Source of the DNA: a bacterium
Lineage (GTDB): Bacteria > Spirochaetota > Spirochaetia > Treponematales > Rectinemataceae
Length of the DNA: 15,751 bases
Reading direction: 5' to 3'
NCBI GenBank assembly: GCA_021813065.1
Contig: JAKALZ010000006.1
Coordinates: forward strand, 1,399 to 17,149
The stretch's first letter is position 1, and each line of letters opens with the position of its first letter. Shown here piece by piece: positions 7,424 through 14,453 of this stretch. The notes beneath the pieces were generated by a model that was not told the origin of the DNA, made no database searches, and saw only the letters and a program-made list of their open reading frames with translations. A program made the translations under genes and the position numbers.

Positions 7424-7444
7424 GTCGACACTCGACGTGTCGAC
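7424..7444. promoter_or_regulatory. Inverted repeat upstream of the carD promoter (possible operator)
   Basis: GTCGACAC-TCGAC-GTGTCGAC is a perfect 8-bp inverted repeat with a 5-bp spacer, ending 5 bp before the carD -35. The location suits a regulator shared by the divergent TVP38-tonB and carD-ispDF units. No T-tract follows, so it is not a terminator. Confidence 0.4.
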
Positions 7445-7449
7445 GGCTT

Positions 7450-7478
7450 TTGACTCTCTTCTCATTTTATGATATGAT
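7450..7478 (+). promoter_or_regulatory. Sigma-70-type promoter of carD-ispDF
   Basis: TTGACT (7450-7455) and TATGAT (7473-7478) are separated by 17 bp. Initiation is expected at about 7484-7488. The A of the ATG at 7488 lies 10 bases after the -10, so the message could be leaderless or nearly so. That would point to 7488 as the ancestral start of carD. Confidence 0.7.
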
Positions 7479-7487
7479 ATTGGTTCT

Positions 7488-7562
7488 ATGCCAAATGACC
7501 AGACAACGAATTTTCTCGTTGACCAGCGTGTCTTGTAGCCCAGTCAGGGTGTCGGCCGAATT
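7488..7562 (+). pseudogene. N-terminal carD coding segment interrupted by an in-frame TAG
   Basis: Reading from ATG 7488 gives 16 codons ending FLVDQRVL, then TAG (7536-7538), then PSQGVGRI, which runs in frame into MEIREK at 7563. CarD-family proteins have V-Y-P-x-x-G-V-G at this place, so the stop replaces the conserved tyrosine. One base change from TAC or TAT explains it. With the stop read through, the product would be 166 residues, the normal CarD length. The cause could be a mutation, a sequencing error or suppression. Confidence 0.8.
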
Positions 7563-7988
7563 ATGGAGATCCGTGAGAAGATCTTCAACAATCAGAAGAC
7601 ACTCTACTATATCATTTATCTCGAATTTTCAGACATGACCGTAATGGTGCCCACCGACAAGGTCGAGACCTTGGGCATCCGCCCCCTCGTGTCGAAGAAA
7701 GAAGCGGAGACCGCCCTCGACTACATCTCGCAGGCCGCGTCGACGATTCCCTCAGACTGGAAGCTCCGATACCAGATGAACCTCGATCTGCTCAAGAAAG
7801 GCTCGATCATGGATATCGCGGCCGTGGTACGCTCGCTCTACCAGCGTTCGAAAATCAAGGAGTTGCCCATCCTTGAGCGCAAGCTCTACGAGTCCGCGCT
7901 CAATCTCCTTCAGGATGAGATCGCCTTCGCGCTGAGCCGTCCTAAAGATGAGATCGTCGCGATCATTCGCGAAAACCTCGACAAATGA
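7563..7988 (+). CDS. carD: CarD/CdnL-family RNA-polymerase-binding regulator (N-terminus lost as annotated)
   Basis: CarD-family proteins bind the RNA polymerase beta subunit through an N-terminal Tudor-like domain and stabilise open complexes at promoters, especially for rRNA. The 141 residues here contain the rest of that domain (TLYYIIYLEFSDMTVMVPTD), then the helical C-terminal domain (DWKLRYQMNLDLLKKGSI, VVRSLYQRSKIKELPILERKLYE). ATG 7563 is the first start after the TAG at 7536. It has only a distant AGGG (7546-7549, 13 bases away), so initiation may be poor. A product starting here would miss the first strand of the polymerase-binding domain. The stop overlaps the ispDF start (ATGA at 7985-7988), so ribosomes leaving carD probably feed ispDF. 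Confidence 0.85.
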   Translation: MEIREKIFNNQKTLYYIIYLEFSDMTVMVPTDKVETLGIRPLVSKKEAETALDYISQAASTIPSDWKLRYQMNLDLLKKGSIMDIAAVVRSLYQRSKIKELPILERKLYESALNLLQDEIAFALSRPKDEIVAIIRENLDK

Positions 7989-9190
7989 ACTCCGCTTCGT
8001 CTCGCTCTATACGCGCGCCACATCTGCCGCTCGCGGGAAAGGCGCATGCGCTCATCACCGCGGCTGGCACGAGCACCCGCTTCGGGGGGACGAAAAAGGA
8101 ATTCGAGCCACTCGATGACTCAACGGTGCTTGAGAAGGCTGTTGAGCCCTTCATCGCGATCTGCGACAGTGTGGTGATCACCTGCCCCAAGGGTGCGCGC
8201 GATGATTTTGAGCGCTTTTTCGAGCGTTCGCGCCTTGCGCCTTCGCTACGCGCGCTGCGAGGCGGTTTCTCTATAGTGGAGGGAGGCTCGGTCCGGCAGG
8301 AGTCAGTGCTTTTTGCGCTTCGCGCAATGCGGGGGGGAACGGGTGTCGGCGACCTTGTGCTCATCCACGACGCCGCTCGCCCCTGGGTATCCCCTAGCCT
8401 CATCCATCGAACCCTGCGCTCAGCCCGAGAACGGGGAGCGAGCCTGCCGCTCCTGCCGCTCACCGATACTCCCAAAGCGGTAGACGGAGACGCGGTCGTG
8501 GACCATCCCTCGCGGCTCTCCATGATGACCGCGCAAACGCCGCAGATCTTTTCTTTTCCTGAAATCCTCGAAGCGCACGAACTCGCCGCGCGCGAAAATT
8601 TCGCCGCAACCGACGACGCGATGATCTGGGACCGCTCCATCGGTCCTGTCGCGTGGGTTCACGGCGAGCGCGAAAACCGCAAGATCACATTCAAGGATGA
8701 TCTCGTGAAACAGACAGAATTCCGCACGGGCCAAGGGTACGACATCCACCCACTCGTAGAGGGCAGACGCCTTTTACTGGCAGGCGTTGAAGTGGAGAGC
8801 GCGCGCGGCGAGGCCGGATACTCCGACGGCGATGTGCTTTGGCACGCGATTATCGACGCGATGCTCGGCGCTTCGGCGCAAGGCGATATCGGCACGCATT
8901 TCCCGCCAGGAGCCCCCGAGTGGAAGGACGCCGACTCCACAGCCCTCGCCCGCGGCGCGGCATCGGCAGTCGCCACCTCAGGCTGGAAATGCTGCAACAT
9001 TGACTGCACGGTAATCTGCGAGCGCCCAAAACTTGCGCCCTATCGCGACCGGATTCGGGCCGCCATAGCGCGAACCCTGGCGCTGCCTATCGACGCGGTC
9101 TCGTTCAAAGCGAAAACGAAAGAGGGTTTTGACGCTACTGGAAGAGGCGAAGCGATAGAAGCATTCGCTTCAGTGCTCATGACTCGCTGA
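7985..9190 (+). CDS. ispDF: Bifunctional IspD-IspF, MEP isoprenoid pathway
   Basis: The 401-residue fusion joins two non-consecutive enzymes of the methylerythritol phosphate pathway. IspD (about 22-240) makes CDP-methylerythritol from MEP and CTP. It shows the nucleotide-binding start ALITAAGTSTRFGG, the LIHDAARPWV segment and AQTPQIF. IspF (about 246-401) forms the cyclic diphosphate. It shows QGYDIH with metal ligands D253 and H255, and SDGDVLWHAI with H287. The usual GHSD is GYSD here. The IspF part also has DIGTHFPP and a C-terminal VSFKAKTKEGFDATGRGEAIEAFA. Translation is coupled to carD by the ATGA overlap. It meets the - strand DMT gene tail to tail with only 9 bases between and no visible terminator. 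Confidence 0.96.
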   Translation: MNSASSRSIRAPHLPLAGKAHALITAAGTSTRFGGTKKEFEPLDDSTVLEKAVEPFIAICDSVVITCPKGARDDFERFFERSRLAPSLRALRGGFSIVEGGSVRQESVLFALRAMRGGTGVGDLVLIHDAARPWVSPSLIHRTLRSARERGASLPLLPLTDTPKAVDGDAVVDHPSRLSMMTAQTPQIFSFPEILEAHELAARENFAATDDAMIWDRSIGPVAWVHGERENRKITFKDDLVKQTEFRTGQGYDIHPLVEGRRLLLAGVEVESARGEAGYSDGDVLWHAIIDAMLGASAQGDIGTHFPPGAPEWKDADSTALARGAASAVATSGWKCCNIDCTVICERPKLAPYRDRIRAAIARTLALPIDAVSFKAKTKEGFDATGRGEAIEAFASVLMTR

Positions 9191-13949: not shown

Positions 13950-14453
13950 ATGAAACATAGGAGATCGACAGGAATCGCGATAGTCGCGGGAACGGCTTTG
14001 GTGGCCGCGATCATTATTCTCGTCCTTAATCTCCAGATCGTTCCAGCGCTGATCATCAAAAATAGCACTGGAACGATCATTGCGGAACTTCCACTTTATG
14101 ATGGGACATTTATCCATCATTTCATTCATTCGGTGCACAAGACACCAGTCGATGAATATTTCGAAGTTCGTGGAAAGACACTTGAACTAACTAAAGTAAA
14201 GTACGACACATACGGCGTGGGAATGCCCTCCGATGGGGGCGAGGGTTTCACTTTGGAAAATGGTCGCTTTGTCGTAATTCTACATAGGGCATTTTCAAGT
14301 ATCCCTATTCGTGTATCGATTGTTCCAGACCATGGCATTGTTGTGGGAGGAACATTCCTGCCTTTTACAAGGTGGGTGCCAAAAGAATCAGCAATTACAC
14401 TCTCCGCAAGGAGAATGCTGATATTTCATAACAGGAGGATTTCTCCAAAATGA
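13950..14453 (+). CDS. DUF1850 family protein of a TAXI-TRAP operon
   Basis: The 167-residue protein has an N-terminal membrane helix (about residues 7-29) and a small, probably periplasmic beta-rich domain. Family-typical segments are FIHSVHKTPVDEYFEV and TYGVGMPSDGGEGF. DUF1850 genes commonly sit between a TAXI binding protein and the fused TRAP permease, as here, so an accessory role in that transporter is likely; its biochemistry is not known to me. ATG 13950 is chosen over an in-frame GTG at 13941, although neither has a strong ribosome binding site. The stop overlaps the permease start (ATGA at 14450-14453). Confidence 0.85.
   Translation: MKHRRSTGIAIVAGTALVAAIIILVLNLQIVPALIIKNSTGTIIAELPLYDGTFIHHFIHSVHKTPVDEYFEVRGKTLELTKVKYDTYGVGMPSDGGEGFTLENGRFVVILHRAFSSIPIRVSIVPDHGIVVGGTFLPFTRWVPKESAITLSARRMLIFHNRRISPK

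Follow-up and report, generated by a model that had tools for sequence, protein, structure and literature searches.

An in-frame TAG in the carD gene of a Rectinema-like spirochaete draft genome most likely has no function in the organism

The carD gene of a Rectinema-like spirochaete, read from a fragmented draft genome, is interrupted by an in-frame TAG which most likely plays no part in the biology of the organism. We infer that the base is wrong or is not the majority base, and a local consensus or assembly error, or sequence from a minority strain, is in our judgement the probable source. The sequence-only reading of this DNA had set out three options, namely a lost first strand, read-through or a wrong base, without choosing among them. 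A second in-frame TAG, in rpsB, together with normal termination at TAG, tips the balance to a wrong or minority base and leaves the lost strand and read-through as the less likely options.

The window, by which we mean the whole stretch of 15,751 nucleotides that was analysed, comprises bases 1399-17149 of contig C216 in its own draft, G000, a metagenome assembly of 2,014,945 bases in 325 contigs with a completeness of 69.81% and a contamination of 1.73%. The congener locus L037 is from Rectinema subterraneum, and P0001, the best protein cluster, belongs to a Rectinema sp. according to its source name. Runs of 10 Ns were present in 6 of 40 sampled contigs of the draft, and one such run lies within rpsB. 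Ten other window genes were checked and are free of internal stops. The reading frame and the codons concerned are as follows.

7488..7988, + strand: carD (CdnL-type) reading frame with one interruption, 166 codon positions before the TGA
7533..7538, + strand: codons 16-17, TTG TAG, a stop at the invariant Val-Tyr pair as judged from congeners and relatives

As had been noted from the letters of the DNA, the frame contains a single in-frame TAG (7536-7538) and is otherwise open as far as the TGA at 7986-7988; the translation from ATG 7488 runs MPNDQTTNFLVDQRVL-stop-PSQGVGRIMEIREK... The window thus has Leu-stop-Pro where the CarD/CdnL family has the Val-Tyr-Pro motif of the first strand. The stop was said to fall on a conserved tyrosine, and all 49 further distinct carD genes of spirochaetes do have Tyr there; the Leu of codon 16 (TTG) is also out of the ordinary, the same 49 relatives all having Val. 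These counts are based on loci L001-L063, which contain 50 distinct loci, one of them the window's own, and leave out 35 more distant loci (L064-L098) and four genomes with a match but no locus. Among the 120 homologues listed of 3930, Val-Tyr precedes Pro in 117, 115 of them recognized by pattern and two (P0005 and P0105) by eye.

Comparison with eight congeners locates the damage closely. At codons 16-17, three bases in six and both residues are different from those of every one of the eight. Codons 1-15 carry one to five amino-acid changes, codons 18-25 three to six synonymous and no amino-acid changes against each congener, and codons 26-166 between 59 and 87 synonymous and between 8 and 18 amino-acid codon changes; the cut locus L041 gave 62 synonymous and 8 amino-acid changes over 111 codons. 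On both sides of the stop, then, the frame was selected as a protein until very recently, or still is, and a chance frame is ruled out. The gene matched once in the draft, and the second copy which had been proposed as a check was not found in the 70% of the genome that the draft covers. A by-eye search for a nearby copy of the changed bases, from which a template switch might have drawn them, gave nothing convincing. Eight of nine congeners possess carD. Five of the searched genomes lack it; four of these also lack ispDF, and in the fifth ispDF lies 11 bases from the contig start, thus indicating missing sequence. Loss of carD in the congener G007 was not accepted, ispDF being missing there too.

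The second in-frame TAG lies in rpsB, the gene of ribosomal protein S2, at 2653-2655 on the minus strand of locus L137 (contig C179 of G000). This gene also matched once in the draft. Fourteen genomes were searched, G000 included, of which two gave no match; in all 11 of the other genomes with the gene the codon encodes Gln. The pieces match the S2 model at positions 4-41 before the stop and 43-223 after it, and the 10-N scaffold joint in the same gene is approximately 340 nt downstream of the TAG. A true stop in rpsB would be lethal. A plain loss of function therefore cannot explain the rpsB TAG; either the base is wrong or the codon is read through, and carD is probably a case of the same kind. 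The rpsB TAG shows that an indispensable gene carries a similar defect, as expected of an artefact, and that at least some in-frame stops in this draft must be something other than true losses.

A survey in which 79 gene queries from the congener draft G006 matched 72,760 bases of 40 G000 contigs returned 27 internal stops, of which 12 were flanked on both sides by stretches with 6 or more identities in 14 residues. A level of 13 or more identities on both sides was reached by rpsB alone; the next best stop, with 11 and 12, falls before the start of a transporter gene at window position 14450, and the remainder, on inspection by eye, resemble frames extended too far in the 5' direction, beyond the starts. 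Within the 72,760 compared bases, a set from which the overlap filter excluded carD, there was no convincing in-frame stop besides that in rpsB and no frameshift pair. The survey supersedes earlier reference comparisons limited to 16,977 and 24,809 G000 bases, where the stops lay in over-extended or wrong frames. Ab initio stop scans either lacked the sensitivity to find carD or gave too much noise; judged by eye, the majority of the other candidates resemble boundaries between genes or incorrect frames. Internal stops were likewise absent from the 86 ABC-transporter domain matches (six of which fell below the family cut-off) and the 42 permease domain matches in G000, 128 in total, and from the ABC domains of four genomes among the matches listed. 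Run the other way round, the comparison picked out three frameshift pairs in the congener draft G006. Two were inspected, one being a PTS IIA-type gene which is intact in G000 and the other a gene with a differing N-terminus; with such a shifted gene in a congener draft, flaws in drafts of this kind are ordinary. The shifted PTS IIA-type gene lies at 12513-13284 of L160, and a gene which appears short next to its G000 partner at 15925-16213 of L172.

The state of the draft, with its many contigs, incomplete coverage and scaffold Ns, one set of which interrupts rpsB, supports an artefact in carD, as do the selection still visible in codons 18-25 and the intact promoter and ATGA junction of the gene. 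However, a single miscall would not account for three altered bases out of six, the general error rate of the draft appears not to be high as judged from the survey and the domain matches, and the window is free of N. The choice of codon requires no special explanation: with G000 codon usage, TAG is the commonest stop produced by random single substitutions (49%), so that two TAGs would arise by chance with a probability of approximately 0.24 and no TAG-specific cause is needed. The case bears a likeness to the nonsense and frameshift artefacts of metagenome-assembled genomes, in that an isolated defect affects a conserved, single-match gene of a fragmented draft and is accompanied by a second defect in rpsB and by the shifted gene of G006, but differs from typical examples in having three clustered substitutions instead of one miscall or indel. 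Among the literature entries listed for premature stops in metagenome drafts, and for CdnL with a stop codon, there was no precedent for it.

In other respects the gene resembles CdnL-type CarD (the spirochaete branch, with Borrelia LtpA and Myxococcus CdnL) in its frame, its CarD_C domain, its place before ispDF, its length (166 aa in the congeners) and, apart from codons 16-17, its VYPSQGVG region. It departs from this type in the in-frame TAG and the Val-to-Leu change at the invariant pair and, if taken at face value, would allow only 141 residues, from ATG 7563. It is very probable that the species has an ordinary CdnL-type CarD of 166 residues.

The alternative that the gene is genuinely broken must be considered alongside the remaining potential start codon and the gene downstream.

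7563..7988, + strand: possible restart product of 141 aa from MEIREK, in which the RNA-polymerase-interacting domain would lack its first strand and the beginning of its second
7985..9190, + strand: ispDF (fused IspD and IspF; PF01128, PF02542), its ATG overlapping the carD stop (ATGA)

A real nonsense mutation would leave a 16-residue peptide and, through some restart at ATG 7563, 24 nt downstream, a CarD of 141 residues with a defective RNA-polymerase-interacting domain, whilst keeping some translation into ispDF; we regard this as possible but rather unlikely. The cluster of three changes, Val16 to Leu among them, resembles a mutation event more than a miscall. Furthermore, CdnL proteins can be lost, as the ltpA mutant of Borrelia burgdorferi is viable, if slow and cold-sensitive (PMC6037790), and CdnL is non-essential in Caulobacter (PMC5324124); a real null is thus not absurd. 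Three metagenome CarD entries among the 120 homologues listed (P0002, P0067 and P0072) are exactly 141 aa long and have MEIREK as their N-terminus, corresponding to the internal Met of ATG 7563; they may be truncated genes, genes cut at contig edges or the outcome of how starts were called. The sequence-only reading had asked whether close relatives begin here, and apart from these three they do not in general: MEIREK was rejected as the natural start, the upstream residues being present in 117 of the 120.

The protein from ATG 7563 would retain the CarD_C domain (PF21095, E 1.5e-20, 73.4 bits against a cut-off of 23.1) and, by alignment mapping in the register adopted here, the positions of the known contact residues. 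Its PF02559 (RID) domain is incomplete, only positions 22-56 of 57 being matched at 22.1 bits, below the cut-off of 23; the intact congener protein P0001 matches positions 3-56 with 51.8 bits. The AlphaFold2 model of the 141-aa protein has mean pLDDT values of 48, 45, 42 and 53 in its first four ten-residue blocks, and that of P0001 has values of 84-90 for residues 11-60, with strand 1 formed by residues 14-17. In Myxococcus CarD, the RNA polymerase-binding domain comprises five strands in the order 5-1-2-3-4 (PMC4374960). A CarD of 141 residues would probably bind polymerase poorly; were the mutation real, this would be a naturally occurring CarD that is cut short in the domain that binds polymerase.

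Against a real mutation stand the presence of carD in all but one of the congeners, its absences in the searched genomes pointing to missing sequence, and the continued selection on the codons after the stop. A strong Shine-Dalgarno match is also lacking at ATG 7563 (-3.9 kcal/mol against a background median of -2.7), and the rpsB TAG would need a separate cause. The ATGA junction is found in all eight readable Rectinema-group loci, the window's own included, and ispDF is probably translationally coupled to carD. With this overlap, a real stop at codon 17 would be expected to hurt ispDF too, unless ribosomes restart.

Read-through of the TAG by a suppressor or near-cognate tRNA would give full-length CarD and would act likewise on rpsB. 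Both in-frame stops are TAG, their flanks are clean and one lies in an indispensable gene, as would suit such a mechanism. Pyrrolysine and suppressor tRNAs are known forms of stop-codon recoding, which the case resembles in having TAG inside conserved frames, but here TAG is a normal terminator and is rare within frames. In 54 G000-G006 orthologue pairs, all nine TAG-ended G000 genes end within 8 residues of their partner, and 11 of 13 TAA-ended and 29 of 32 TGA-ended pairs end together. Genome-wide reassignment is thereby ruled out, in agreement with the earlier view that it was unlikely; that view drew on the genes ending at 2350, 4720 and 11237, which on rechecking the window genes do use TAG as their stop. 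RF1 is present above its profile cut-off, although the first 21 profile positions are lost at a contig end. A tRNA with a CTA anticodon, which had been suggested as a check, was not among the 27 tRNA matches, typed with ARAGORN directly or as neighbours, nor was there a match to PylS, which counts against pyrrolysine; both results apply to a draft that is approximately 70% complete and may lack a tRNA of the genome. The lack of stops in any of the 86 and 42 domain matches counts against read-through too, as does the fact that relatives have different residues at the two sites (Tyr and Gln). Taken with these points, read-through seems improbable, and was ranked below both an artefact and a real nonsense mutation. 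If it did occur, rpsB would be a second essential gene reliant on it. Code 15, in which TAG encodes Gln, is found in some phages (PMC9523058).

There is a further form of this idea, an early stage of TAG suppression in which a tRNA absent from the draft reads TAG at a few sites, in carD and rpsB, with TAG still ending most genes. We consider this highly doubtful; if true, a global transcription regulator and a ribosomal protein would be tied to the efficiency of read-through.

A chimeric contig, with a short foreign or paralogous stretch stitched into carD, is very unlikely. One stretch does occur in the bin in two forms, which are 86.8% identical across 673 nt, but in carD the change is limited to six bases with matching flanks, and the gene matched only once. 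The stretch that is present twice carries tRNA-Gln(TTG) and lies on two contigs of the bin, at 18419-19090 of L132 (the end of C178) and 385-1055 of L145 (C202), suggesting either more than one related genome in the bin or a duplication. A wrong or minority base in carD remains the explanation we prefer, and the case illustrates that other essential genes should be checked before single stops in metagenome drafts are interpreted.

A solid by-product of this work concerns the start of the gene.

7450..7478, + strand: carD core promoter, -35 TTGACT, 17-nt spacer, -10 TATGAT, from a scan and comparison with relatives

The -10 box ends 9 nt upstream of ATG 7488, and the same -35 box, spacer and 9-nt distance occur in all nine Rectinema-group carD genes, including the window's own. 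Under looser rules, a promoter 4-13 nt before an in-frame start codon was found in 38 of the 49 distinct relatives, with 1.26 expected at random places; for the first match listed in each of these 38 the gap is 6-11 nt, and a comparable promoter precedes 2% of ATGs elsewhere in the loci. The earlier proposals that ATG 7488 is the true start, and that the promoter places the start of transcription there, are thus upheld, and the closeness of the promoter in relatives suggests that the mRNA is almost leaderless. CarD would then be made from a nearly leaderless message beginning at ATG 7488 and be coupled to ispDF through the ATGA overlap, and spirochaete carD genes in general are probably expressed from such mRNAs. 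Another spirochaete, Leptospira, commonly has leaderless mRNAs (PMC5243855, where CarD is not named). Five bases 5' of the -35 box, at 7424-7444, lies a palindrome, GTCGACAC-TCGAC-GTGTCGAC, which is operator-like or may resemble a terminator stem on the minus strand.
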